This document shows, piece by piece, positions 1,695 through 31,082 of a stretch of 33,316 nt of DNA (its first letter is position 1; every line of letters begins with the position of its first letter). This DNA is from Desulfobulbaceae bacterium (lineage in GTDB: Bacteria; Desulfobacterota; Desulfobulbia; Desulfobulbales; Desulfocapsaceae): NCBI GenBank assembly GCA_031256095.1, contig JAIRRG010000193.1, forward strand, positions 1 to 33,316, written 5' to 3'. The position numbers and the translations under genes are program-made. The notes beneath the pieces were generated by a model. It was given only the letters and a program-made list of their open reading frames with translations, was not told the origin of the DNA and did no database searches.

Positions 1695-1947
1695 CTTCAA
1701 CCTCCTCGCCATTCCCGGTTTTGCCATCATCGTCAGCGGGCAGGGGCGGTGTTTCGCCGGACGTTTTGGATTGCTCCTTTGCAGGTTCCTTTGTACGGCT
1801 TGCGGCTGGCTTTTTGACAATCACCACGAGGCCCATGGCCGCGGCCCGTTCCGCCTCGGCCTTTTCCATTGCCACCACTTCGTCTGGGAAACGCTGCCCT
1901 TTGCCATCATCAAGCACCGCTCGCAGCACAACATCTATTTTTGCCAT
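1687..1947 (-). CDS. Hypothetical phage protein following major capsid (FI-position)
   Basis: 86 aa ORF MAKIDVVLRAVLDDGKGQRFPDEVV..; acidic/Pro-rich tail; overlaps holin start. Confidence 0.45.
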   Translation of the reverse strand: MAKIDVVLRAVLDDGKGQRFPDEVVAMEKAEAERAAAMGLVVIVKKPAASRTKEPAKEQSKTSGETPPLPADDDGKTGNGEEVEDV

Positions 1948-1955
1948 AACTCACC

Positions 1956-2972
1956 TCACACAACTTTGGCGTATACAGTCCAGCCCGGCTGTTTAGTCCA
2001 GGCCAGCGGGCGCGACTCGGCGATGGTGAAATAGCCGGACGGATCTTCCTGTTTGAATCCCTTTGAGAAAATCTCGACGGGACCGGCGCAGTCGTTGTCA
2101 ACCGGCAGGCCAAATTCGATTACGGATTCGGCATCGGCGGCGACCAGCAGGACGCAGTCCGGATCGAGATACTGTTTAGTGCTGCCGTCGAGATCGGTAT
2201 AAGCGCCGGCGACGGTCCAGATGGTCAACCCGTTCCAAGCGCCCTTGATTTTTTTGGCGACATGAGGCAATAAGGAACCAACGTTAATATCGCGGTTGTC
2301 CATGTACTTTTCGACATCGTGATGGTGGCGGAAGGCTTTCCAGGCGTTTTTGCCAAGCAACAGGTCGGTGGCGGCAAAGCCGGTCTCCTCCAGGAGCATC
2401 AGGCTCCAGCCATCGACATGACCAAGCAGATCGGATGCTGAGTCAGCCCATTGCGCGGCGCCGGTTAAAACGATGTTGTGAGCCAGAGGCCGTTTGTAAT
2501 CGACCGTGAATTTCGGCACGGCGCCAGCGCCCTCGACCATGTCGTAGAGGGTGATTTTGCCTGTCACCATGGCCTGCTGGCACATGATCTCGAGAGCAAA
2601 ATCAATCTCCTCTCGGTGCAAATCCATATCCTCGGCAATGGCGCGAGACATGCTGTCATCAAGGGGCGAATAAGGATTGACCCCGGCTGGCATCTTGAAG
2701 CGGTCCGCCGCCGAGAAAGCGCGTTTTGGGCGAAAACGCGGGGCCTTGACCGCGCCTGCCTCAATGATGTCGCTCTTGCGCATGGTGCCCGGCGCCGTGT
2801 TCGTGATGGCCGGCAGCATGGTGATGTTGCGGCTTTTGACGTGCAGCTCGAACAGCTCGCCAGCCGATGGTGGCCGCTTTCTGAAAAAACTCGTGAAGAC
2901 ATCGCTTTTCAGCGGCTTCCGTTTGTTAATAACCCCAGTGAGGATGCGGTGATCAAAGTAATCAATGTTCAT
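1956..2972 (-). CDS. Major capsid protein, lambda gpE family
   Basis: MNIDYFDHRILTGVINKRKPLKSDVFTSFF...; start moved in from the longer ORF, which overlaps the decoration gene upstream; synteny D-E. Confidence 0.85.
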   Translation of the reverse strand: MNIDYFDHRILTGVINKRKPLKSDVFTSFFRKRPPSAGELFELHVKSRNITMLPAITNTAPGTMRKSDIIEAGAVKAPRFRPKRAFSAADRFKMPAGVNPYSPLDDSMSRAIAEDMDLHREEIDFALEIMCQQAMVTGKITLYDMVEGAGAVPKFTVDYKRPLAHNIVLTGAAQWADSASDLLGHVDGWSLMLLEETGFAATDLLLGKNAWKAFRHHHDVEKYMDNRDINVGSLLPHVAKKIKGAWNGLTIWTVAGAYTDLDGSTKQYLDPDCVLLVAADAESVIEFGLPVDNDCAGPVEIFSKGFKQEDPSGYFTIAESRPLAWTKQPGWTVYAKVV

Positions 2973-2982
2973 TTGCTTCTCC

Positions 2983-3357
2983 TTATGCCTCGGCGGCGTA
3001 GATGCCATTAGAATGGAGTTCATCCAGGGCGTCGTACTGCCCGGCGGCGCTGACACTGTCGTCCCAGATGAGTTCGGCGGCCACGGCGTCGCAGTGAACA
3101 TAGGTGAGGGCGTACTTGTCGCCACTGGCAGGGATGGTGACATCCTCGGCCAGGATCGAGCGCGCCTCCATGTCATCGCCATCGCCGCTGTAAGCGTACT
3201 GTTTGCCATCTTCCTTAATACCGAGGACAGTGCCGGCCAGAAGCGTTTGTTCCGATCCCGTCGAGCCAAGCAACGCCCGCGCCAAAACCGGCGGATGATC
3301 CTTCAAAAATGCTTTTCTTTGATATTTGGCGATTGTTTCCATAGGTAGTCTCCTCAC
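2983..3357 (-). CDS. Head decoration protein, lambda gpD family
   Basis: 124 aa: DHPPVLARALLGSTGSEQTLLAGTVLGIKEDGKQYAYSGDG; between protease and capsid. Confidence 0.8.
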   Translation of the reverse strand: MRRLPMETIAKYQRKAFLKDHPPVLARALLGSTGSEQTLLAGTVLGIKEDGKQYAYSGDGDDMEARSILAEDVTIPASGDKYALTYVHCDAVAAELIWDDSVSAAGQYDALDELHSNGIYAAEA

Positions 3358-4628
3358 ATGGCGGCGATCTGATCAATGGCCGCCTGGATGCGGTCGTTTT
3401 TTTGCGGCGTGGCCAAGGTGTTGACTGGGCCAGGCGTCGCGCCACGCAGCGCGGCAAGAATGTCGGCCCGGATGCCGCCTTCACCGGCACCTGTACCCGC
3501 GTTATTGCTAGCCGGAGCCGCCAACAGCGGCGCAATCGCTTCCAGTTGCGCGGCGGTAACTCCAGAGGCGGCAAGCGCGTTTACCTTCTCAGCGGCTTCT
3601 TTACCAGCCACCGCCATCACCAAAGCCATGGTGTTGGCGCTGGCATCATTCATCTGTTGTTCAAATGCGGCTTTCAAGGTCGCCTCCGTTTCCGCCCGCG
3701 TCCTGGCCTCGGTCTCGGCCTGGATTTGGGCCAGCAACTCCGGGTGTTTTTCTGCCAATTCGGTTTTATCCATGTGTATCTCCTTGTGTATGCGGGCGAT
3801 CAATTCGGCCCGATCTGTGACAATCCCGCTGACAAGGCCCAATTCAAGGGCCTTGCCGGCGAGAAAACATTGGCCGTCGCCCCAAGCTTTCGGGTCGGCG
3901 GCATCCACCGCCATCCTGGCGGCGACATCGCTGCGGAAAACTTCGTGCAGGGTGGCAAGCGTTTCCTGAAAATAAGCTTGGTCGGCGGCAGACAGCGGCG
4001 AGTCCGGGTTACCCGCTGCCTTCCATGTCCCCGCTGTCATGTAAGTGACGCGGATGCCAATCGCCGCGTTCAGTCCACTGCGATCAACATGAGCGGCGAT
4101 GACGCCGATGCTGCCGACTGTGGCCGTCTGTGGCGCGAAGACGCGGCCCGTGGCCGCGGCCAGCCAGTAAGCCGCCGATGCGCACAGGCCATCAGCATAG
4201 GCATAAATGGGCTTGGCGTCCTGAGTGGCGATGAAATCGGCCAGCTCTTTGGTGCCAGCGGCCACTCCGCCCGGCGAATCGAAGGAAAGCAGCACGGCCT
4301 TGACCGCCGGATCAGCCATGGCCGCCAAAATGGCGGCGCGGATGGTGTCCTGACCATTCCAGGAAAAGGTCATGCCCCAAAAACTAATACTGCCGCCTTT
4401 ACGGTGGATGACGCCCTGGGCGTCAATGACCGCCACATCGTCATGCAGGGTATAACTGGCGGGTTGACCATCGCTGGACGCTGACCGAAGCGCAGCGCTC
4501 TGGGCGGGAACCGGCTGCGCCTGATCAGCGCCGGGGGAGGCGGCCCGGAGCATGGTTTCAAGGAAAGGTTCAAGGGCGGAGGGCAGAATTGCCCAGGCCG
4601 CCGGGCTGAAAAAATCAGGCAGAGGCAT
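3354..4628 (-). CDS. S49 (SppA-like) head maturation protease with C-terminal scaffold-like region (gpC/Nu3-like)
   Basis: ..VKAVLLSFDSPGGVAAGTKELADFI...AYADGLCASAAYWLAAAT..GSIGVIAAH; coiled C-terminal Ala/Glu-rich region. Confidence 0.9.
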   Translation of the reverse strand: MPLPDFFSPAAWAILPSALEPFLETMLRAASPGADQAQPVPAQSAALRSASSDGQPASYTLHDDVAVIDAQGVIHRKGGSISFWGMTFSWNGQDTIRAAILAAMADPAVKAVLLSFDSPGGVAAGTKELADFIATQDAKPIYAYADGLCASAAYWLAAATGRVFAPQTATVGSIGVIAAHVDRSGLNAAIGIRVTYMTAGTWKAAGNPDSPLSAADQAYFQETLATLHEVFRSDVAARMAVDAADPKAWGDGQCFLAGKALELGLVSGIVTDRAELIARIHKEIHMDKTELAEKHPELLAQIQAETEARTRAETEATLKAAFEQQMNDASANTMALVMAVAGKEAAEKVNALAASGVTAAQLEAIAPLLAAPASNNAGTGAGEGGIRADILAALRGATPGPVNTLATPQKNDRIQAAIDQIAAM

Positions 4629-6135
4629 TCGGCTCCTCCTTATAGTTGGATACCTTGGTCGGTTGAATAGTAAAACCAGCCAAGCGGCTTTCTTCTTCTT
4701 GCCGCTCGTCCATAACCTCGTCGAAGTCGCGACCGCGTTCAGCCAAGGCTTCCGAGTAAGTCATCAATCTTTCTTCCAGGGCGGTAACGGTTGAGGCAAT
4801 CTCCTTGACCGGATCGACATAGCCGCGCGGTGGCCCGATCCATAACGCCTGCGTGTACAGGTCGCGGGCATCGTAAAAATCGGGAGCGCCAGCAGGCAAT
4901 TTGATGAGACTGGCCAACCAGGCTTCCTCTATGACCATCCCCCAAATCGGCTGGCAGTAGTGGCGAACCAGCCAAGCGCGGTAGAGCAGGAATTTCCGCC
5001 AAGCTTCGAGCAAGGCGGCGCGGGCGCTGGAGTAGTTGGTCTTGGAAAAATCCTTGGCCAGCACCTCGTAAGGGATGCCAAGGCTGGCGGCCATGGCCCG
5101 CAGCACGAACTCGGAGAAGTGAGCGAAGTTAGGCGACGGGCGACCTGACTCCAAGATGTAGGGCTTTTCGCCAGTGTTGCCGTACATGACGGCGCCGCCG
5201 CGCGCTTCTTCATAGTAGCGTTTCTTGCCGTCTTCATCCTCTTCTTGCTGGGCGTATTCCGGCAGCACCGGACCGCCAGGTTCGCGGCCAATGAAGACCG
5301 GCAGACTGGCCGTGGTGACGGCGGCTAGCAGCTCATTATCGAGGGCGTCGGCAAGGTGGCGAAACAGGTTCATGCCGGGCGACAGCGCCGATTCGCCGCG
5401 GGTCTGTTCTTCCTCACTGTGCCAAAAAAGGTGGAAAGCGCCAGGACGGTGGCCAAGGCGGGCCGAGACGCACGTGAACTGGCTGGAGTCGAGGTCAGCT
5501 ATATTGACAATGCGGGAAGTAGCCGATGTCGGCGTGGCCAGCCAGTACGTCTCCGGGGCGCCGTAATGATTGAGCTGGACGCCATCAACAATGGATGGAT
5601 CACCGGCCAGATTCAAAGGAGTGCGCAGCCTTGACGGCTGCACATCCTGGATTGCAAGCTTGATTTTGCGGCCAGGATCGTCGAGCATCACCGGCAAATG
5701 GAACATCTCGCCATGCTTCAACATGCCGCGCAGGCCGAGGAACTGTAAATCCTCAAAATGCAACATACCGCGCGTGTGGGCCTGCGGCGTCCAAGCTTTC
5801 CAGACGGCCTCGATATCTTCCTGCAACTGGCGGGCGGCATCCGCGGAAATGCCAAGACGCTTGGAGTTCAGGCGCGACCGTGGTCGCAGACCAGTGCCGA
5901 CGGCGTTGATGGTAATTGAGTCGATGCCGGATTGAGCGGCCCAGTCATTGGCGGCCAGATCGGCGGCGCGGTCCTGAGAAAGGACTCGCTCCCGCGCCTG
6001 CTGCTCCAAGGTGTGGGCATAAGGCGGGTTATAGGCCGATAACGAGCCGCGCCGGGAACCGGCGTCGCGGGAAACCTTGGCCGCCGATGGCGGCAAGCTG
6101 ACCGGGCGGGCCTTGAGCGCGGTTTTGGCTACCAT
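4615..6135 (-). CDS. Phage portal protein, lambda gpB family
   Basis: 506 aa; ..GMLHFEDLQFLGLRGMLKHGEMFHLPVML..., ..GIPYEVLAKDFSKTNYSSARAALLEAWRKF; synteny. Confidence 0.9.
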   Translation of the reverse strand: MVAKTALKARPVSLPPSAAKVSRDAGSRRGSLSAYNPPYAHTLEQQARERVLSQDRAADLAANDWAAQSGIDSITINAVGTGLRPRSRLNSKRLGISADAARQLQEDIEAVWKAWTPQAHTRGMLHFEDLQFLGLRGMLKHGEMFHLPVMLDDPGRKIKLAIQDVQPSRLRTPLNLAGDPSIVDGVQLNHYGAPETYWLATPTSATSRIVNIADLDSSQFTCVSARLGHRPGAFHLFWHSEEEQTRGESALSPGMNLFRHLADALDNELLAAVTTASLPVFIGREPGGPVLPEYAQQEEDEDGKKRYYEEARGGAVMYGNTGEKPYILESGRPSPNFAHFSEFVLRAMAASLGIPYEVLAKDFSKTNYSSARAALLEAWRKFLLYRAWLVRHYCQPIWGMVIEEAWLASLIKLPAGAPDFYDARDLYTQALWIGPPRGYVDPVKEIASTVTALEERLMTYSEALAERGRDFDEVMDERQEEESRLAGFTIQPTKVSNYKEEPNASA

Positions 6136-6374
6136 CGCGATTTCCTGGCGTAGACCTTAACCGGGCTGGACGGATTGCCGGAAAGCACTTCGATGATGGC
6201 GGCAAACTCGGCGACGGTCCGCCGGATTTCCCGCAGATCATAGCGGGCCAGCCGCCGCGAGCCGATCACGTATTCCTTGCCGGTCGATGCGGCGGTCAAT
6301 GCCGCCTTCCAGTTGGCAAGCTCGGACTTGGCTTCGGAAAGAGTGTAGCCTTTATAGGTAGTCGGTGCGTTCAT
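6129..6374 (-). CDS. Head-tail connector, gpW-like small protein
   Basis: MNAPTTYKGYTLSEAKSELANWKAALTAASTGKEYVIGSRRLARYDLREIRRTVAEF; between terminase and portal. Confidence 0.7.
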   Translation of the reverse strand: MNAPTTYKGYTLSEAKSELANWKAALTAASTGKEYVIGSRRLARYDLREIRRTVAEFAAIIEVLSGNPSSPVKVYARKSRW

Positions 6375-6410
6375 GTTCCCACAAATAGCGCAGGGTATAA
6401 TGCCTGTCAC

Positions 6411-6451
6411 GAGACGTGGGAGACTTCTGAGACTTGTGAGACTTCTGAGAC
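6411..6451. repeat. 9-bp tandem repeat, consensus GAGACTTST
   Basis: GAGACGTGG-GAGACTTCT-GAGACTTGT-GAGACTTCT-GAGAC read directly. Confidence 0.9.
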
Positions 6452-6469
6452 AAAAAATTTGCGATTAGC

Positions 6470-6658
6470 TTAAAAATCCTTGGCAACGCGCTGCCGCCAT
6501 TCTCGTAAATAGCGTTCGCAGTCGGCGCGGCGGACGGTGACGCCTTTGGTCTTGCCATAACGTTCCGCCGGCAACTCGCCACTGTTGACCAGCCGGTAAA
6601 AATGCCCCTTCGAGCAACCAAGCAGCTTACAAGCTTGCTGCCAGTTGAGTCTTTCCAT
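6470..6658 (-). CDS. Small helix-turn-helix DNA-binding protein (excisionase/MerR-like)
   Basis: MERLNWQQACKLLGCSKGHFYRLVNSGELPAERYGKTKGVTVRRADCERYL: winged-HTH pattern. Confidence 0.75.
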   Translation of the reverse strand: MERLNWQQACKLLGCSKGHFYRLVNSGELPAERYGKTKGVTVRRADCERYLREWRQRVAKDF

Positions 6659-6662
6659 ACCA

Positions 6663-8669
6663 TTACCTCCTCATGGCCGCCAGGCGTTCGCCGGCGCTGA
6701 CCGGACGCCGCGCTGGATAAACCAGCGGGCCAGCCGCTTTTGCCGCCTCCGTCTCTTTTTTCGGCGGACGTTTGTGACGCAGACCCAGTTCCCAGGCCGC
6801 GACCAGACACATAACCTCACAGTCCCAAAAATGGTTCGGCTTTTGTTTCGGGTTTTCCCAAACCAAGCTTTCAGGATTGAAGACCTCGGCGCACATTTCG
6901 CGGGCGTAATCAAACAACAGCCCTTCATGTTCGATGCCGCCTTGGCGCTGTACCACATCGGCGTGCAGGTGGAAGGCGCCGGGATCACCGGCGGCAATGG
7001 TCAGTTTTTCCGCCAAATCACTCTTGAAAAAAGTTGTGTCGACGCGGCGCAGCAACAGCCCGCCGGGAATTTTAATCTTTGCACCCTTGGCGTCCGGGAA
7101 AAACTCAAGCGGCGAATAGGCAATGGGCGTGGCCTGACTCTGCTTACCTTGATAGGCCATGACACGGGGACGGCCAGCGGCCCAGGCGTAGACTTGTTTG
7201 GTGCGGCCTGGCGCGCCCATGGCGTCGATCACCGCCGCCTTGACCCGGTAGCTATTGCCCTGGGCGTCGCAGTAGACGCTCTTCCACAGCAGCTCATCGA
7301 GCGCCACAAAGGTCTGAGCCGTGCCGCATTGGATCAACCAGCTTTCCTCGGTCTCGCCAAAGCCATAGGCGCGAATGACGTAGCGGAAATACGCCGCCTG
7401 GGTGTCAATGCCGGCGACCAGGGCGGCGACGCGCGGCATTTCATTGACCCGGCCGGGGACGATGCCGCGCGGGCGGTCATCACACAGGGCCAGGATGGCA
7501 TTTTCCTGGCGCTCGGCATGCCGTTCCTGCCAAGGTTCGGCCTTGTACTGGTTCATGAAGTTCTTCAGATCGGCCAAGCGTCCCGATTTTTTCCAGCGCA
7601 AAAAGGCGTGGGCCACTTCCGACAAACTTACGAAGTAAGAAATCCAGGCCGGGATATGAAAGCCCAGTTTTTGCGGCTGATACTGAGCGATGTGTGCGTA
7701 AATCTCCAGCCCTGATCCTCGCTCGACCCACTGACCGCGGCGCACGGCCTGATTGCGGGCGGCGTCATCCCAAACGGCTGCGCAGTGGGCGCAGTGGTAA
7801 GCGGCGAGCTTCCCCTGTAAAACCGCCTCCGGGTCGTCCACTTCCGGCCAGCGGATGTTGTCGAAAATCATGATCTGCTGGGCGCCGCAGACCGGGCAGC
7901 GCGCCTGCCAATCGAACCGGGCGATGGCTTCCTCGGTGAAGGCCGTCCAGATCGGACCGCTCTCCATGGTCGGCGTCGAAATTTTCAGAATCAGGCGGCG
8001 CGACCGCCAGGAAATGGTGCGTTTTTCAGCGAGAGCGCAAGGGTCGGCCTCGCGGCGGGATTCTGGATACTTGTCGATCTCATCGAGGATCAAGAGGCGG
8101 ATCGGCCTGGAACCGAGGCGAGCGACGGAGCCGGCCCAACCGAGGAATATTGGCATGTGCCGCAGGTTGACGCGGATGGTCGATTCGTCGCCGACGGCGC
8201 CGGTCAGGTGGCGGCGCAGGCGCGGCGAATCCTCAAACATCGGCAAGATGCGGTCGCGCATCATATCCTTGGCCGTGTCCTTGTCGGCGTAGACAACCAT
8301 GGCCGGACCGGGGACGTGATCGGCGGCATGACCTAAGAGGTTGATGGCCGCCTCGGTCAGGCCGGTTTGCGGCGACTTGCAAACGATGCCGACCTCAACG
8401 CCGGGCAGACGCATGGCGTTCATCAGATCGGCCAGATACGGCGCGAAGATGTTTTTCCAACGGCCAGGCAGACTCGATTGCCGGACGACGCGGCATTTTT
8501 CCGCCCAATCGCTGGGCCGCTCCGGACGGCGGCGATGCAGCACCGCCCGCTCGGCTTCGCTGAAGGAAAAAGTCACTGGCTGGCGGCTGGCGCCACGCAG
8601 ATAACGTGGCAGCCAGGCCGGAACCGGCTGGGTGATGGCGCGGCGGTCGGCAAGATGGTTGTCAGGCAT
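6663..8669 (-). CDS. Terminase large subunit, GpA family
   Basis: MPDNHLADRRAITQ...; SPQTGLTEAAINLLGH Walker-A-like region, LLILDEIDKYP Walker B; start overlaps the Dam stop. Confidence 0.9.
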   Translation of the reverse strand: MPDNHLADRRAITQPVPAWLPRYLRGASRQPVTFSFSEAERAVLHRRRPERPSDWAEKCRVVRQSSLPGRWKNIFAPYLADLMNAMRLPGVEVGIVCKSPQTGLTEAAINLLGHAADHVPGPAMVVYADKDTAKDMMRDRILPMFEDSPRLRRHLTGAVGDESTIRVNLRHMPIFLGWAGSVARLGSRPIRLLILDEIDKYPESRREADPCALAEKRTISWRSRRLILKISTPTMESGPIWTAFTEEAIARFDWQARCPVCGAQQIMIFDNIRWPEVDDPEAVLQGKLAAYHCAHCAAVWDDAARNQAVRRGQWVERGSGLEIYAHIAQYQPQKLGFHIPAWISYFVSLSEVAHAFLRWKKSGRLADLKNFMNQYKAEPWQERHAERQENAILALCDDRPRGIVPGRVNEMPRVAALVAGIDTQAAYFRYVIRAYGFGETEESWLIQCGTAQTFVALDELLWKSVYCDAQGNSYRVKAAVIDAMGAPGRTKQVYAWAAGRPRVMAYQGKQSQATPIAYSPLEFFPDAKGAKIKIPGGLLLRRVDTTFFKSDLAEKLTIAAGDPGAFHLHADVVQRQGGIEHEGLLFDYAREMCAEVFNPESLVWENPKQKPNHFWDCEVMCLVAAWELGLRHKRPPKKETEAAKAAGPLVYPARRPVSAGERLAAMRR

Positions 8670-9528
8670 CACAAGGCGCCTCAGTCGAAGTGGCGCGGAA
8701 CAACTCCAGCAGTGATAATTGTTTATTCCTACTACAAGCCGCTGTCCGCGGCGACAACCACAGGCATTCCTGGCTGTATCCGCTATCGGTCCTGGTTTGT
8801 TTTTCCATCCGTGTCCAGCCGTTGAATAGGCGATCATACAAATTGCAGCGATAACCAGAGATCACTACATAGCCGGAGCAAGCGCGCAGGCATGCCGCCA
8901 ATGCCTCATGATCCGCGTCGGTAATTTCGTGGCGGTACGCTCCATAGCTGGTACGAGTGCTGGCCGGGTATGGCGGATCTATGTAGAAAAGGGTGTCGGG
9001 CGTATCGAGCAATGGGATAATGTCGAACGCGGACCGGTTCTCTATTGTCACGCCGCGCAGGCGCTCGATAACAGCCAAGAGGCTTTCCGGGTAATTCATC
9101 CAATCGTGCGCTGGCGAGGTGTAGCAGCGGAAAGAACGGGAACGGAAACCGGTTTTGTATCCGGTAGCCGCGCCAGATGAAAAACCCATGAATGAAGTAA
9201 TGCACAAACGGCGTGCCCGTTCCACCGGATCGAGTGATTTTTCCTGGGCCAGATTGAACTCGTCCCGCGCAAATGGCGTCACACTGAGCAGCCGAATCAA
9301 TTCTTTTGCCTGGGTATCATCTTGCAGCACCCGGAACAGGTTGATGATTTCTCCGTCCAGATCATTCAGATATTCGGCGTAAGCGCGTGGCTTGCTGAGC
9401 AACACCGATGCCGCACCGCAAAACGGCTCACAGTAGATACGATGCGGCGGGAAAAAACTCTGTATCCAGGGCGAGAGACGCCACTTGCCGCCGTGGTAAC
9501 GCACCATCGGACGGGTTGGAGTGGTCAT
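8662..9528 (-). CDS. DNA adenine methyltransferase, D12/Dam class
   Basis: RYHGGKWRLSPWIQSFFPPHRIYCEPFCGAASVLL and FYIDPPYPASTRTSYG (DPPY). Confidence 0.9.
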   Translation of the reverse strand: MTTPTRPMVRYHGGKWRLSPWIQSFFPPHRIYCEPFCGAASVLLSKPRAYAEYLNDLDGEIINLFRVLQDDTQAKELIRLLSVTPFARDEFNLAQEKSLDPVERARRLCITSFMGFSSGAATGYKTGFRSRSFRCYTSPAHDWMNYPESLLAVIERLRGVTIENRSAFDIIPLLDTPDTLFYIDPPYPASTRTSYGAYRHEITDADHEALAACLRACSGYVVISGYRCNLYDRLFNGWTRMEKQTRTDSGYSQECLWLSPRTAACSRNKQLSLLELFRATSTEAPCDA

Positions 9529-9546: not shown

Positions 9547-9816
9547 CTATTCATCACTTTCAATCGCGTCTGCTGCCAAGCCGATATAACCGGCAGCGTC
9601 AAGCAGGTTGTCTCGCTTGTGCTCATGCGATTCGCGGGAAATCTTGAGCAGGGCCATGCACATCGCCACATCTTTGCCGGTGACGGTCTTATCGAGATAC
9701 ACAGACCACAGTTCAGCGATGCGATTCAGACTGTCTGCTGGATCACCATAATCAGCCTGCCGCTCGCCGTTGATCAAAGCGTGAGCCTTCAGCAAGATGC
9801 TTCCATTATTCGTCAT
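9547..9816 (-). CDS. Small conserved phage protein (DUF6378-like)
   Basis: 89 aa; INGERQADYGDPADSLNRIAELWSVYL...CMALLKISRESHEHKRDNLLDAAGYIGLA; ends in TAG. Confidence 0.65.
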   Translation of the reverse strand: MTNNGSILLKAHALINGERQADYGDPADSLNRIAELWSVYLDKTVTGKDVAMCMALLKISRESHEHKRDNLLDAAGYIGLAADAIESDE

Positions 9817-10492
9817 TTCTTCCCTCTCTCAATAACGTATTCGCGCATCTGCCGAGTAATCGACCGCGCCCTGGCCCATTCGTGTTGCAGAGTTTTCCAT
9901 TCTCTACCAACATCTTCCCGGCGGCGCGTAACGGCTCCAAATCGTCCTCAGTGTCGTAGGCGAAAAAGAGCTGCTTTGGGTGTAGATTTTTCAATTCCCG
10001 CGCAATCCACGGCTTCATGCGCGCTGCCTCTAAGCCGCCGGTAAATTCGATTCGGCCCGGCTGCTTGGCGAGCATGGCAAATACGGATTTGATATGGCTT
10101 TCGGAGCAAGCGAGCAAATTACTATCAAGGACATTGATACCGTTCTTCACAGATAATTCTCGCACGATTTTTCCTTCGCGTTTCGGTACTGCGCAGAACC
10201 AGCAATGATTCGGACAGCCGCGAGAGGTAATCACGTACCCATTTTTCAGATACATGCCGGGCACAAATTCACCGCCGCCGTCGCCGGTTGCCGGGCCGCC
10301 AATCAGCACCGGCGCCACAGGCCGCCACAGCCTGGCCAGGCGGTCAGCGGCGGGCAAGTCCCAGGTAAAAGTCACGCTGACATGAACCTCGTCCGCTTCA
10401 TCCCACAAGAAAGGCCCACGGCCAACAACGGCCAGTTCATCATCCGGCGTGGCTTTGGTGCGGCGGGAAAAGATGCGGATTATCCGTTTCAT
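9806..10492 (-). pseudogene. Phage radical SAM protein with apparent internal deletion and frameshift near the C-terminus
   Basis: Start MKRIIRIFSRRTK; radical SAM CX3CX2C in RGCPNHCWFC; C-terminus degenerates after FFAYDTEDDLEPLRAAGKML while another frame reads VGREWKTLQHEWARARSITRQMREYVIERGKK* into an ATGA overlap with the next gene. Confidence 0.6.
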
Positions 10493-10887
10493 GATGTTTC
10501 CCTTCGCGCCATTGCCGCTGCGGCCAGCCAACACGCTTCACATCCTTCCTGCTCTAAGCATGTTTCATTTCGCTGATCATCAGGACATTTGAAGGTGTTG
10601 CCAGCAAGGTGGCTGGCTAGCCATTTCATTTGAGCTTCGGCGGCTTCCAGCGCGGCGAGGAGGCGAGGAAGGTTATATCGGGCGGCGGCGATAAATTCCG
10701 CGTTTCCGTGCGCCTTCTCCGCATCTTCTTCCGTCTCGTGGCTGTACACGCGGACAAAGGCAGTGTCGGTTGTGTCGTCATCTGGCGCCATAACTACAGT
10801 GTAATCAATACCACTGTGCGCCCTCCACGGCCCCGGCGTTGCTGCCGCGCACAGTGCGCGGAGGGCGTCAATATCTTGCTTGGTCAT
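10489..10887 (-). CDS. Ead/Ea22-like phage accessory protein
   Basis: MTKQDIDALRALCAAATPGPWRAHSG...NAEFIAAARYNLPRLLAALEAAEAQ: typical Ea22-like opening. Confidence 0.65.
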   Translation of the reverse strand: MTKQDIDALRALCAAATPGPWRAHSGIDYTVVMAPDDDTTDTAFVRVYSHETEEDAEKAHGNAEFIAAARYNLPRLLAALEAAEAQMKWLASHLAGNTFKCPDDQRNETCLEQEGCEACWLAAAAMARRETS

Positions 10888-11873: not shown

Positions 11874-13199
11874 TTACAGTTTCAATTCGTCAAAAAGCAT
11901 TCCATCCGATTCCCGCACGGCTTTGCCGCCGACAAAATCCTGCCAGCGCTCGATTTGCACTTGGACGAAACGCGGGTCAATCTCCAGAGAAAAGCAGCGG
12001 CGGCCCAAACGCTCGCAAGCAATCAGCGTCGAGCCACTGCCGCCGAACGGGTCGAAGACAATGTCGCCGCTCGCCGACGAATTGCTAATGCAATGGGCGA
12101 CCAAATCCACCGGCTTGGTGGTTGGATGCAACTCTGATTTGGTGGGCTTCGGAATATTGATGACCGTGCCGGGCGTTTCTTCGATCTGGAGATTGTCGCC
12201 GGATAGGCGGTACAATTTCCCATCGATCAACAGAGTAAAGCTGCCGTCATCCTGAGCGGCAATACCGGGAAGTCCAGCTTCCAAAATGGTTTTCGGCTGG
12301 CGGTTACCATGCCATTTGTGGGCGGCGCCGGGTTTCCAACCGTAGAGAATCGGCTCGTGCTGCCAGTGGTAATCACTGCGGCCAAATACGGCCTGACCCT
12401 TGTTCCAAATAAGGCAAGAGGCGAAACGGAATCCGGCATCATGAAAGGCGTGGCGGAAGGCCAGACCATTGCCAATCGACTCGGCATGGGCGATATAGAT
12501 GGCGCCGCCGGGCTTGAGGGCGGCGAACATGCCAGCCATGGCAGAGAACAGAAAATCGTCAAACTGAGCGGCGGTCATTTTGTCGCCGGTGATTTTCCCG
12601 GCCTGGCCTTCGTAATCGACATTGTACGGCGGGTCAGTCCAGACCATGTCCGCTTTAATCCAGCCGGACAAAAGACAATTGCGATCACTGAGCCTGGTGG
12701 CATCGCCGCAATACAGGCGATGCGCTCCTAAAAGCCAGATGTCGCCGGGCCGCACCAGCGGCTGGGCCGGTGGGTTAGGGATAGCGTCCGGGTCTTGGCC
12801 GTTTTCTGCTTTGAGCAACTTATCAATCTCGTGCTGATCAAAACCGGTCAGCGTGATGTCAAAATTGGCGGCAAGCAATGCGGCGATTTCCTTGGCCAGC
12901 AATTCCTCATCCCAGGATGCCCAAGTGGCCGAGCGGTTGACCAAAAGACGGAAGGCGCGCACCTGCGCGGGTGTCAGGTCATCGGCCAGTAGCACCGGCA
13001 CTTCGGACATGCCCAGAACGATGGCCGCCTTCAAGCGCAAGTGTCCGTCGATAATCTCACCGCTGCTGCGGACAAGCAGCGGCACACGAAAGCCAAATTC
13101 GCGCAACGCCGCCGCCATGCGGTCAACGGCGCCATCGTTTTTTCGCAGGTTGAAAGCGTATGGAACGAGACGATGGGTTGCCCAGGATTCAATCTTCAT
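11874..13199 (-). CDS. ParB-N domain fused to DNA methyltransferase (beta-class-like, DPPY)
   Basis: N-term IIDGHLRLKAAIVLGMSEVPVLLADDLTPAQVRAFRLLVNRSATWASWD (ParB-N); C-term MVWTDPPYNVDYEG and FDPFGGSGSTLIACERLGRRCFSLEIDPRFVQVQIERW. Confidence 0.92.
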   Translation of the reverse strand: MKIESWATHRLVPYAFNLRKNDGAVDRMAAALREFGFRVPLLVRSSGEIIDGHLRLKAAIVLGMSEVPVLLADDLTPAQVRAFRLLVNRSATWASWDEELLAKEIAALLAANFDITLTGFDQHEIDKLLKAENGQDPDAIPNPPAQPLVRPGDIWLLGAHRLYCGDATRLSDRNCLLSGWIKADMVWTDPPYNVDYEGQAGKITGDKMTAAQFDDFLFSAMAGMFAALKPGGAIYIAHAESIGNGLAFRHAFHDAGFRFASCLIWNKGQAVFGRSDYHWQHEPILYGWKPGAAHKWHGNRQPKTILEAGLPGIAAQDDGSFTLLIDGKLYRLSGDNLQIEETPGTVINIPKPTKSELHPTTKPVDLVAHCISNSSASGDIVFDPFGGSGSTLIACERLGRRCFSLEIDPRFVQVQIERWQDFVGGKAVRESDGMLFDELKL

Positions 13200-13915
13200 C
13201 GGGCCTCCAGCAAATCTTTTTTAATCAGATACGGCTTGCCGACCGCGTCGAGTTTGGCGCAAACGGCCTGACGAAATGCGGGCCAATCGATTGTTTGCGC
13301 GAATGGATGATGATTGAGTTTGCCGACTTTATAAAAATCGACGAAAGCCGCCGTGGCATCAATCAAGCGCAGGACGGCGCCCGGATTTATCACCGGCTCG
13401 AAACTCACCCAGGTCGGGATGCCCCAACGTTTAGCGGCCCGGAGCGACTCAATACGGTCGGCTGGCAGGGCCGCCTTAGGCTCCCACCGCTTCGACTCCG
13501 CGTCATCATCGCTGGTCAGGGTGACCGCGAACTCAGCATCCATGTTGGATAAAATATCGAAATCCCGCTGTGCCAGCAGACAGCCCTTAGTCAGGACGGC
13601 AACCTTGATATGGGCCGAGGCTAAAATTTCAAGCGCCGCACGGGTTAAACAGGTTTCTCGTTCTAACGGCTGATAAGGGTCGGAAGTGAAAGACAACAAT
13701 ACCCGGCGCTTATCGCCGCGAAACTTAACGGCATCCGCTTGCAACTGCCGCAACACGTCACGGCGCGGGCAGGGCTGGCCGTGAAAGACCGCCGGCGCGG
13801 TAAGCGTCGCGCCCGGCGCGTAACAGTAGAGACAGCCGTGAGCGCAGCCTTTATAGAGATTGGCCGCCAAGGGCGCATACTCCCTGGCTTTCCCTTTCGG
13901 CTCGTAAATGACCAT
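13196..13915 (-). CDS. Radical SAM protein, spore-photoproduct-lyase-like (SplB-like)
   Basis: ANLYKGCAHGCLYCYAP (CX3CX2C), LLSFTSDPYQPLE, VAVLTKG, VSFEPVINP; SD AGGAGG upstream. Confidence 0.85.
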   Translation of the reverse strand: MVIYEPKGKAREYAPLAANLYKGCAHGCLYCYAPGATLTAPAVFHGQPCPRRDVLRQLQADAVKFRGDKRRVLLSFTSDPYQPLERETCLTRAALEILASAHIKVAVLTKGCLLAQRDFDILSNMDAEFAVTLTSDDDAESKRWEPKAALPADRIESLRAAKRWGIPTWVSFEPVINPGAVLRLIDATAAFVDFYKVGKLNHHPFAQTIDWPAFRQAVCAKLDAVGKPYLIKKDLLEAR

Positions 13916-13921
13916 GATTTT

Positions 13922-13980
13922 TCCTCCTGTTTTTCCGTGATTTTTATTTTTATAGTAACTTTTTTCTGTTATGATTTCAA
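13922..13980 (-). promoter_or_regulatory. Predicted sigma70-like promoter and RBS for the SPL-like/ParB-MTase pair
   Basis: Minus strand TTGAAA (13975-13980), 17-nt spacer, TACTAT (13952-13957), then AGGAGG; AT-rich. Confidence 0.55.
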
Positions 13981-14010
13981 ATAAAAACAACGAAAAATCA
14001 TACAAATAAA

Positions 14011-14574
14011 TCAATCTCGAACCATTCTAACCCCGAAATATCTGGCGTGTCGTGAAGGCGACGATTCGAGGGCTTCCAGGATGGAAAACCCTGACGTAAT
14101 GGCGCGGTTTATGGCATAGGCCACGGCAATCGGCGCGCACGATGAGGTTAGCAAGGTTCGCGGCGCCATCTCCAAAAGTGGCCCCAAGCCGCACCACTTC
14201 GCCACTTCGTCCGAGACGCTGCCGCCGCCCACCCTGATCAGGCCACAGGTCAAGAAGACGGTGATGGCGCCTCGGCCATGCTCAACCACCTGCCGCCAGT
14301 GCCGCCACGGCTCGCCGTAGGTGTCGATATCGATGCAGTCGAAATGCCAGTTGCCGGCGGCCAGGAGGCGGGACGAATCAATTTTGATGCGGCCCTTTTT
14401 CGGCTTCAGATCGACGGGAAAATACAGAGGCGGCGCGAACTCCCGGCGCAGCGTCCGCCACAGCGCGCCCGTCCCTTGACAGCAGTCGAGCACCGAAACC
14501 GGCGGATACTTCTGTAAAAAATATCTCCGCAAGGCCAGCTTCGACCGCAAATTGGAGTTATCCGTTTTTCTCAT
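14011..14574 (-). CDS. Rossmann-fold SAM-dependent methyltransferase-like phage protein
   Basis: VSVLDCCQGTGALWRTLRREF (motif I-like), FDCIDIDTYGEPWRHW (DIDxYG as in Trm1-like enzymes). Confidence 0.6.
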   Translation of the reverse strand: MRKTDNSNLRSKLALRRYFLQKYPPVSVLDCCQGTGALWRTLRREFAPPLYFPVDLKPKKGRIKIDSSRLLAAGNWHFDCIDIDTYGEPWRHWRQVVEHGRGAITVFLTCGLIRVGGGSVSDEVAKWCGLGPLLEMAPRTLLTSSCAPIAVAYAINRAITSGFSILEALESSPSRHARYFGVRMVRD

Positions 14575-15116
14575 TTGCCGCTCACCGTCGTATGAACGGC
14601 CACGCCTGGCACGTTCGCCAAGCCGTCAATGGCGTCCTGGATTTCGCCAAAACGCACGACGGGAATACCGACCAAAACCCACGCCATCTCCGGCGCCGCC
14701 AAGTCTATTTTTTTCAGGCTCGCCTTTTCGACACTAATGTCATCAAAGGAAAAATCGTCGAAACCAATCAGCGGCGCGCCGAGTTCAACGAGGGCGGCCA
14801 GCTCATCACCCAGCTTGTCGTCGTCAAAAAATGATATATCTGACAGGCGATTATCGGCGAGGATATAGGCGCGGCGCTGCTCTTCGCTAAGATGCTCTAT
14901 AAGGATGCAAGGGACGGTCGGCAAGCGCAACTGTAAGGCGGCGGCCAAACGCCCATGACCGGCGATGATCATGTCGGTATCATCAATTAAAATCGGGACG
15001 TTAAAACCAAACTCGGAGATGGATGCCGCTATCTGATCAATCTGGGCCGGGCTGTGCATCCTGGGATTGCGGTCGTAACCGCGTAAATCAGCGGGGTCTT
15101 TAGAGATGATTTCCAT
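14571..15116 (-). CDS. Orphan ParB N-terminal domain protein
   Basis: DLRGYDRNPRMHSPAQIDQIAASISEFGFNVPILIDDTDMIIAGHGRLAAALQL...RAYILADNRLSDISFFDDDKL. Confidence 0.9.
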   Translation of the reverse strand: MEIISKDPADLRGYDRNPRMHSPAQIDQIAASISEFGFNVPILIDDTDMIIAGHGRLAAALQLRLPTVPCILIEHLSEEQRRAYILADNRLSDISFFDDDKLGDELAALVELGAPLIGFDDFSFDDISVEKASLKKIDLAAPEMAWVLVGIPVVRFGEIQDAIDGLANVPGVAVHTTVSGK

Positions 15117-16590
15117 TGCAATTCCTCATTTGGCTGGCGGAACGGCCAGTGCGGATATACGACCCAGCGAAAACACGCTTGACGTCCAGCATCTTTTCCA
15201 TGGCCGCCAGCCGGGCCGCCTCGTCCATGCCGCCGATGGCCTCGTTCAGCCGCGCCAGCTCGTTGCGCGAGAAGACGATTTCACCGGCGGCGGTCAGGGC
15301 ATCCCAGCTTTTGTGGTCGTCGGTGACGTGGAATTCGGAGCCGGACGTGAGTGTTACGACGTAGCTTTTGATGTCTGCCGCCGACTCCAGCAGGGCTTCA
15401 AGTTCTGGCGCGGATTCCGGCATGATCGGCGAATCGCTTTGTTGCTCACGTTTAGCCTCCGGTGGATGGCAAACCGGCGGTAAGGCCAGCGCCGACGGCA
15501 AGGCAGCATCGATCCAGTCGGCCAAATTGTTGCCGCTTGCTGCATAATCGCCAGGGTCTTTGCCTTCCGGCACCGGCCAGCGGCGGGCCTGCGAATAGTG
15601 ATCTTGCCACCACTGCCAGCCTTGCAGGCCGGCGGTATCAAAGTCGAGGGCGACGAGGATCAGCGGCGAGCGGGCCAGCAGGTAATGGGCATCGGTATCC
15701 GGCTTGCCGCGGTTGGTCAGCACGGCCAGGGTGCCGACGCCGCGGGCGCAGGCGTGATGCACGGCCATGGCGTCGAGCTCGGCCTCAACCACCACCCAGA
15801 CGGCCAGATCGGGCGCGATCCCTTCCGGCGTGAGAATCAGCGGCGCCGAACTGGAGCCTTCGACGACTAGATATTTGCTGTCGTCGGATTTCAAATCACC
15901 GGTTCGGCGGCGGATGCGGATACGCAAGGCTTGCGGCTCGCCGGGGGTGCGGGCTGGTGGCGCCCACATCGGGATGGTGATGCCGCGGGGAATCCACAGC
16001 GACCGGTGCGCCTTGCCGGCTTTATCGATGCGGTCGGCGAGGCCGAAAGCGGCACGCGCGCGGTACAGCCCTCTGCCGGTTTTGTCCTCACCATCGAGAT
16101 TGCCGAGAAAATAACGCTCGATGGCCGCCAGCGGCAGGCCACGCCTGGAGAGATACTCCAGGGCTGGCTGGCAATTCAGAATCGCCTGGTGGGCCTTTTC
16201 CGCGAGCCTTCCGGCTTGCTTCCGCCAGATTAGCGCCGGAAGCGGCCAGGTCTGCGGTTGCCACTCGGTTTTTTTCTTCAGCGGTGTTAGACGCCTTGGC
16301 GCCGGGGCCTTGCTTTCGATTTGCAGGCGTCGGCAGGCGGTTTTGAAATCACAGCCGTCGATGGCCATAACCAAGGCAATGATGTCGCCGCCCTTATCGC
16401 ACCGTCGGCACCACCAAGTGCCGGTCTGCCCAGCCTCTTGCGCCGCGGCGCCGCCGGGCTGATCCGGCCAGACATGGAAGCGGTCATTGCCGCCGCACAC
16501 CGGGCACGGGCCATGATATTCGCCGCCCTTACTGTTACTGACATGCCGCAATTCGGCGCCGCCAGCGAGTAAATCCATGATTGCTGTCAT
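15100..16590 (-). CDS. Phage DNA primase with zinc ribbon and Toprim domain
   Basis: GPCPVCGGNDRFHVWPD...WWCRRCDKGGDIIALVMAIDGCDFKTACRRL; Toprim-like VVVEAELDAMAVHHA and LILVALDFDTAGLQG. Confidence 0.85.
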   Translation of the reverse strand: MTAIMDLLAGGAELRHVSNSKGGEYHGPCPVCGGNDRFHVWPDQPGGAAAQEAGQTGTWWCRRCDKGGDIIALVMAIDGCDFKTACRRLQIESKAPAPRRLTPLKKKTEWQPQTWPLPALIWRKQAGRLAEKAHQAILNCQPALEYLSRRGLPLAAIERYFLGNLDGEDKTGRGLYRARAAFGLADRIDKAGKAHRSLWIPRGITIPMWAPPARTPGEPQALRIRIRRRTGDLKSDDSKYLVVEGSSSAPLILTPEGIAPDLAVWVVVEAELDAMAVHHACARGVGTLAVLTNRGKPDTDAHYLLARSPLILVALDFDTAGLQGWQWWQDHYSQARRWPVPEGKDPGDYAASGNNLADWIDAALPSALALPPVCHPPEAKREQQSDSPIMPESAPELEALLESAADIKSYVVTLTSGSEFHVTDDHKSWDALTAAGEIVFSRNELARLNEAIGGMDEAARLAAMEKMLDVKRVFAGSYIRTGRSASQMRNCNGNHL

Positions 16591-18470: not shown

Positions 18471-18742
18471 AGCGCACCCCGCAGTGCCGCTGGCAAGCGT
18501 CCGTTTTTCCGCCAAGATTTTCCGCCAGACCTGTAAACGGGCCGGGATGCGTGCACCCTTAGGCCCGCCCAGCCCCAGGAAGGACCCGCGGCACAAAGAG
18601 GCGCGTGGGAGGTTTTGGTTTGATTTATTGAAAAGGATATAAAGGGGAAACAAAGACCGATAGAACGATCAGGTGATAAACAGGGAATAAAATTTTGATT
18701 GAAGGATGGCTCTCTATGAAAAGATGAAGAGGCAGCACCATC

Positions 18743-18762
18743 AATGTGGGGGTAATGTGGGG
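18743..18762. repeat. Direct repeat AATGTGGGG-GT-AATGTGGGG beside tRNA-Arg
   Basis: Two 9-bp copies (18743-18751, 18754-18762) about 70 bp from the tRNA 3' end. Confidence 0.7.
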
Positions 18763-18832
18763 CTGGGTCAACAAAACGAAAATAAAAAAACGGAGCTATG
18801 ACCGAAAAGAAGCCATAACCACTTGATTTTAT

Positions 18833-18908
18833 TGGTGCCCCCGGCGTGAATCGAACACGCGGCACCAGGATTAGGAATCCTGTGCTCTATCCCCTGAGCT
18901 ACGAGGGC
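18833..18908 (-). tRNA. tRNA-Arg (CCT anticodon), CCA encoded
   Basis: GCCCTCG TA GCTC AGGGGATA GAGC A CAGGA TTCCTAA TCCTG GTGCC GCGTG TTCGATT CACGC CGGGGGC ACCA folds as a cloverleaf. Confidence 0.97.
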
Positions 18909-30462: not shown

Positions 30463-30679
30463 GAGATTGGGGGATGGAGGCGCAGTGGAACGGGAGCGGA
30501 CTGGAGATGTGGCGCTGTCGAAGCAGCCAGGCGCGGGCGTCTGGAATCGCTTCTTCGAGTTGCTGCGCTCCGTCGAGGTGCCGGCCGATTTCATGGCCGA
30601 GCGTCCGTTGAATGTGCTGCCATCAGAGCGCGACATTTTTGATGATGAGACGGTGCGGGACCTGGATGGGAAAGGATAG
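30449..30679 (+). pseudogene. Truncated VapB-like antitoxin remnant (C-terminal region only)
   Basis: GVWNRFFELLRSVEVPADFMAERPLNVLPSERDIFDD resembles VapB C-termini; no AbrB-type N-terminal domain. Confidence 0.55.
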
Positions 30680-30681
30680 CC

Positions 30682-31082
30682 ATGCTGCACATACTGGATA
30701 CCGATACCGCAAGCTACCTGATCAAGGGCAAGGGTCGGCGGTCGAAAATCGCCTGGCGGCTCTTGCCCCGTCCATGGTCTGCATTTCGGTGATGACACGA
30801 GCCGAGCTCCAGTACGGGCTGAAGCGGCTACGAGTAGATCATCACCTTCACTTGGTGGTGCGCCAATTCCTCAAAATGATCCGCACTCTGCCATGGGACG
30901 TCGAGGCGGCCAACTGGTACGCCGACATCCGCCACCCATTGGTCAGCAACGGTCAGCAGATCGGCGAACTGGACATGATGATCGCCGCCCATTCGCTCTC
31001 GGCGGGCGCAGTGCTGGTCACCAACAACCGTCGCCATTATGAGCGTATCGAAGCGCCATTGATACTGGAAAATTGGGCATAA
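30682..31082 (+). pseudogene. Frameshifted VapC-like PIN-domain toxin
   Basis: Frame 1 MLHILDTDTASYLIKGKG then stop; other frame GSAVENRLAALAPSMVCISVMTRAELQYGLKRL...ELDMMIAAHSLSAGAVLVTNNRRHYERIEAPLILENWA*. Confidence 0.8.

Follow-up and report, generated by a model that had tools for sequence, protein, structure and literature searches.

Trm1, the tRNA (guanine26-N2)-dimethyltransferase (PF02005; structures 2dul and 3axs), acts on tRNA and has chains of 365–387 aa. In wyosine synthesis, also in tRNA, TYW1 acts after TRM5. Radical SAM proteins of the PA0069/Rv2578c family and of mobile pair A/B (TIGR04471/TIGR04470) have NCBIfam models, and fusions of a ParB-N domain to a beta-class N6/N4 DNA methyltransferase, in a single polypeptide, are common in phages (phrog_498). 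In bacterial genomes, TcmP (PDC-M41A/M30A) and the radical SAM protein DUF5131 (PDC-M30B/M41B) are paired as PADLOC candidates (TIGR04474 and PF07505). Our literature search found nothing on DUF5131 and only passing mentions of TcmP, Gp37Gp68 and PDC-M30; its scope did not include a computational survey from 2013 of base-modification systems in phages. Here we describe a phage module and compare it with these systems.

The window spans an entire bacterial contig of 33,316 bp and carries a partial prophage on the minus strand beside a tRNA-Arg(CCT) gene (Table 1). The prophage ends at this tRNA gene (18653–18908), its opposite end is truncated where the contig stops, and no integrase was noticed in the window. 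Four ORFs at 15116–11874 (minus strand) encode a ParB-N protein, a methyltransferase-like protein, a radical SAM protein and a ParB-N::DNA methyltransferase (genes 1–4), with a primase on one side and terminase genes on the other, as a preliminary description of this DNA had reported. Downstream of gene 4 follow a terminase-small-like gene, an Ea22-like gene, a second radical SAM gene, DUF6378, a D12 methyltransferase and the terminase large subunit, then (by eye) portal and capsid genes. The D12 and second radical SAM genes of that description are likewise confirmed. No relatives of the latter occur among an early set of fetched loci, and these two genes, together with gene 4, may act independently. 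The junctions overlap by 17 nt (primase/ParB-N), 4 nt (ParB-N/methyltransferase) and 4 nt (radical SAM/ParB-N::methyltransferase). For gene 3, the likeliest start is the ATG at 13915, preceded by AGGAGG, and not the TTG at 14014, which leaves a 95-nt gap after gene 2. In the host part of the window, an ORF at 30612–31082 resembles a PIN-domain (VapC-like) protein by eye, with a small ORF just upstream.

Table 1 Features of the prophage and their coordinates in the window.
Feature	Position	Strand	Evidence
P4-type primase-helicase	18653-16887	-	
Zn-ribbon/Toprim primase, overlaps gene 1	15100..16590	-	PF08273 4.3e-13, PF13155 9.7e-5
Gene 1: standalone ParB-N (sulfiredoxin-fold), 181 aa, short C-terminal tail	14571..15116	-	
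Gene 2: Trm1-like methyltransferase-fold protein, 187 aa	14011..14574	-	
Gene 3: radical SAM, 239 aa, PA0069/mobile-pair-B type	13196..13915	-	
Gene 4 (neighbour): ParB-N fused to beta-class N6/N4 DNA methyltransferase (DPPY), 441 aa	11874..13199	-	
Second radical SAM gene, between Ea22-like gene and DUF6378	9806-10534	-	CPNHCWFC motif; phrog_9298 5e-14; PF04055 weak
D12 (Dam-like) methyltransferase	9528-8662	-	
Terminase large subunit, gpA type by relatedness	6663..8837	-	Alignment with phage terminases of L017 and L033

The ParB-N, Trm1-like and radical SAM genes (genes 1–3) form a conserved module that recurs across unrelated phages at rates above those of controls. Pattern-scanning IMG/VR for the gene 2 family yielded 27 loci, 25 after removal of near-copies, in which we called ORFs mechanically and searched with HMMs built for this analysis. 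ParB-N lies directly upstream (≤60 nt), usually overlapping, in 21 of the 25, and a radical SAM gene, either of the PA0069/mobile-pair-B kind (labelled 'SPL' type here) or DUF5131, is present within the fetched locus in 19, within 300 nt in 16. One further gene 2 member (L024) has a DUF5131 gene in a short record, missed by our HMM and recovered by a Pfam search. Several loci (L021, L025, L026 and L028) hold ParB-N and the methyltransferase with no radical SAM gene nearby, so not every locus includes the radical step; IMG/VR records are fragments, and such absences are therefore weak. A control scan seeded with the window's terminase large subunit, aligned to the L017 and L033 terminases, gave 80 loci (906 kb) with no gene 2 relative, no radical SAM gene and one standalone ParB-N. 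The radical SAM frequency of 19/25 compares with 0/80 in this control (Fisher p 5e-16) and with 1/80 in a second one, seeded with the window's ParB-N::methyltransferase (9e-15). Seeding by radical SAM gene places ParB-N and the methyltransferase within 2.5 kb in 30/72 (SPL-type) and 23/64 (DUF5131) non-redundant loci; these sets were chosen by the radical SAM gene and, given that seed bias, are left out of the p-values.

The radical SAM partner changes repeatedly. On a maximum-likelihood tree of gene 2 (90 rows; long-branch warnings in its deep parts), the partner class labels require 10 changes (SPL) and 12 (DUF5131), against about 30 for shuffled labels, and at least 7 and at least 8 of these, respectively, are forced by strongly supported branches. 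In 13 of 63 close pairs the members lie on opposite strands, so they stay neighbours even though the operon structure varies. Partner swapping and orientation flips together argue for a functional link, not for an inherited neighbourhood alone. It is hardly credible that genes 1–3 are unrelated accessory genes (morons) packed by coincidence into an early region: orphan genes do gather in such regions, which would suit gene 4, but the co-occurrence of genes 1–3 greatly exceeds both controls, appears in either direction of seeding and withstands exchange of partners.

Gene 4 behaves differently. It matches PF01555 (1.8e-31) and phrog_498 (2.4e-144), fusions of its kind occur in 18 of the 80 terminase-seeded loci, and the 80 loci seeded with it contain no gene 2 relative and a single radical SAM gene. 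It is probably an independent, common phage orphan methyltransferase whose distribution does not follow that of the trio. The four-gene cassette proposed in the preliminary description is rejected on these counts; co-occurrence holds for genes 1–3, far above controls, and fails for gene 4. We also considered ParB-N::methyltransferases as alternative partners of the radical SAM enzymes and discarded the idea, as their frequency in non-redundant radical-SAM loci (18/136) is not above the 18/80 background.

In sampled genomes, gene 2 is rare. Gene 2 relatives occur in 2/395 sampled genomes of the phylum and 1/258 of the class, the window's own genome being counted in both. One genome of the same phylum, G301, carries the ParB-N, methyltransferase and radical SAM genes in this order, and an integrase-looking ORF lies about 1.7 kb away. 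Against 50,697 phage records, the gene 2 proteins of the window, L012 and L116 find no match, and those of L014 and L155 find only Dulem virus 36, a complete, circular genome in which the trio is annotated as 'ParB protein', 'hypothetical protein' and 'PA0069 family radical SAM protein'. We found no recurrent extra modification enzyme beside the trio beyond one TET/JBP dioxygenase (1/27 records); neighbours are otherwise ordinary phage genes. That one record, L016, has at 1865–6769 a row of ParB-N, FkbM-type methyltransferase, ParB-N, TET/JBP dioxygenase, ParB-N, Trm1-like protein and DUF5131, a candidate complex DNA-modification locus. Separately, L003 (5102–6454) has a modification-like cluster, with a Dam-like-phage1 and GNAT-phage-like fusion (PF22555, PF22559) adjoining a standalone ParB-N gene and an SPL-type radical SAM gene close by, and L001 (395–2986) has a helicase-like ORF with, by eye, an apparent intein-like insert (CLDSETEVLTEAGW ... 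GNCQ).

Gene 1 matches PF02195 under its curated cut-off (E 1.4e-4) and, more strongly, phrog_620 (1.5e-43) and phrog_498 (1.1e-38). Its AF2 model (pLDDT 87.9) retrieves ParB/Noc/KorB N-domains and sulfiredoxin with Foldseek, over only ~120 of the 181 residues, and has no HTH or centromere-binding domain after the ParB-N part. The protein thus lacks the DNA-binding HTH of ParB and is unlikely to have a partition role, in line with the earlier view. Residues G53-H54-G55-R56 are compatible with a nucleotide-binding motif. In the phrog_498 fusions, the same kind of ParB-N domain serves a methyltransferase, although there within one polypeptide and unlinked to the trio. A W-L-[IV]-G tail looked like a hallmark of paired ParB-N proteins, and proved non-diagnostic (38/70 paired, 16/43 unpaired).

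Gene 2 has no match in PHROG, NCBIfam or PADLOC and no significant match in Pfam, where PF02005 (TRM) scores 12 bits (E 0.11), below its gathering cut-off of 27 bits. It has a motif I (DCCQGTG) and a motif IV (D82-I-D84-T-Y-G-E-P-W), and its AF2 model, built from 27 sequences, has a pLDDT of 85.8. The best PDB matches with Foldseek are Trm1 structures, 3axs (3.2e-8) followed by 2ejt and 2dul, and a profile of 82 family members has 2dul as its best PDB match (E 4e-4). The profile alignment sets D82-I-D84-T-Y-G-E-P opposite D136-L-D138-P-F-G-S-P of 2dul, where D138 and F140 presumably line the guanine pocket; no residues other than D82 and D84 are invariant across the 82 sequences. Profile and fold searches thus place the 'Rossmann' protein of the preliminary description nearest to the tRNA-guanine methyltransferase Trm1. 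Gene 2 shares with Trm1 the fold and a motif IV of the form DxD[PT][FY]GxP, but differs in its length, in lacking the C-terminal half of Trm1, in having T for P in motif IV, in its ParB-N and radical SAM partners and in its phage location.

This kinship raises the question of substrate. An RNA-modifying trio, in which the Trm1-like and radical SAM enzymes would modify tRNA or rRNA, for example against host defences that cut tRNA, ParB-N being an NTP-dependent accessory, seems unlikely to us. In its favour, the nearest solved relatives of gene 2 are tRNA G26 methyltransferases, and TRM is the commonest weak Pfam match in the family (15/82 members). Against it, gene 2 (187 aa) is about half the length of Trm1 chains and is without their C-terminal half, ParB-N domains of the gene 1 type are otherwise fused to DNA methyltransferases, and radical SAM genes of these families also adjoin DNA methyltransferases.

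Gene 3 has PF04055 as its sole Pfam match at E ≤ 0.01 (3.5e-11), and its cluster motif CAHGCLYC has the CX3CX2C spacing. Its NCBIfam matches, NF033668 (2.7e-27) and TIGR04470 (2.8e-9), both fall below cut-offs, so its kinship with the PA0069/Rv2578c and mobile-pair-B families is at sub-cut-off level. The mobile pair A/B and PA0069/Rv2578c models are those matched by gene 3 and its DUF5131 counterpart; the matches nevertheless lie far below NCBIfam cut-offs, and the partner in the trio is a methyltransferase, not a second radical SAM protein. Gene 3 does not match the Pfam model of spore photoproduct lyase (SPL; PF20903), and in family alignments the only invariant cysteines are C24, C28 and C31. 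Judged by these features gene 3 is not an SPL, because both the PF20903 match and the required fourth cysteine (C141 in B. subtilis, PMC3742179) are missing; the earlier label 'SPL-like' is only loosely right. We consider it very improbable that the enzyme reverses a DNA lesion as SPL does. The CX3CX2C motif would suit nucleic-acid repair, and a PF20903 protein adjoins TcmP in one bacterial locus; that reading nonetheless faces the lack of a PF20903 match and of the fourth cysteine that SPL needs, since only the three cluster ligands are invariant, and leaves the constant methyltransferase partner unexplained.

In its architecture, the trio resembles the TcmP and DUF5131 pair. TcmP, which carries a D-P-[FYW]-G motif, adjoins DUF5131 in 16 of 20 sampled bacterial loci, so in both systems a methyltransferase-like protein lies directly beside a radical SAM protein of DUF5131 or SPL kind. 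The pair differs in having no ParB-N gene, in the size of TcmP (280–380 aa) and in residing in bacterial genomes, not in a phage early region. In one bacterial locus (L387, 2313–3470), the TcmP gene is followed by an SPL family protein (PF20903 8e-32) in place of DUF5131. Profile–profile comparison (hhalign) gives TcmP and gene 2 a probability of 6%, with no detectable homology, and we rejected TcmP as a gene 2 homologue; gene 2 likewise has no PADLOC or NCBIfam match as component A. As component B, gene 3 is SPL-type and has no PADLOC match, and DUF5131 holds its place in other loci. The trio may thus work like the pair but is not a member of it. We regard as improbable that the trio is a counter-defence against PDC-M30/M41, or their phage counterpart, writing or altering a mark that those systems recognise. 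The D-P-[FYW]-G protein beside DUF5131, and the standing of DUF5131 as one of two interchangeable gene 2 partners, speak for such a link; the undetectable homology of TcmP and gene 2 speaks against it, as does the fact that PDC-M30/M41 are candidate defence systems only.

Since the trio recurs in many unrelated viruses, it is probably one unit that alters nucleic acid. Our best explanation, to which we lend about even credence, is that genes 1–3 are one functional base-modification module, most likely acting on the phage's own DNA and protecting it from host nucleases. A multi-step modification module of the kind proposed in the preliminary description stays the best reading for these three widely co-occurring genes, and not for four. 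DNA is the likelier substrate: the best matches of gene 1 include ParB-N halves fused to DNA methyltransferases, trio-less radical SAM genes of these families sometimes adjoin N6/N4, Dam-like or C5 DNA methyltransferases, and in L016 the TET/JBP dioxygenase lies just before the trio with a ParB-N gene on either side. The action of Trm1 itself on tRNA counts against this explanation, as do the single TET/JBP record, the otherwise ordinary phage neighbours and the loci with no radical SAM gene nearby.

We infer the complex, substrate, order of steps and product of the trio as follows. ParB-N, free of a partition HTH, would bind the small methyltransferase and deliver it to the substrate, standing in for the C-terminal half of a true Trm1; the shortened gene 2 would fit such a transfer of substrate delivery to ParB-N. 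The Trm1-like protein would then put a methyl or other SAM-derived group on an exocyclic amine through its motif-IV aspartate, the target being, by analogy, guanine N2. Finally, the radical SAM enzyme would take a hydrogen from the base or from the new methyl group to yield an elaborated product, as TYW1 follows TRM5. The more specific proposal of a new DNA hypermodification, with N2-methylguanine made in DNA by the Trm1-like enzyme and its methyl built upon by the radical SAM enzyme, as a DNA counterpart of the wyosine route, is rather improbable.

The module supplies a function hypothesis for a methyltransferase family with no model found in Pfam, PHROGs, NCBIfam or PADLOC. Through it, two little-understood radical SAM families, DUF5131 and the PA0069/mobile-pair-B proteins, also gain a constant partner, so that LC-MS could uncover a new modification of nucleic acid and help to explain the candidate defence systems PDC-M30/M41.
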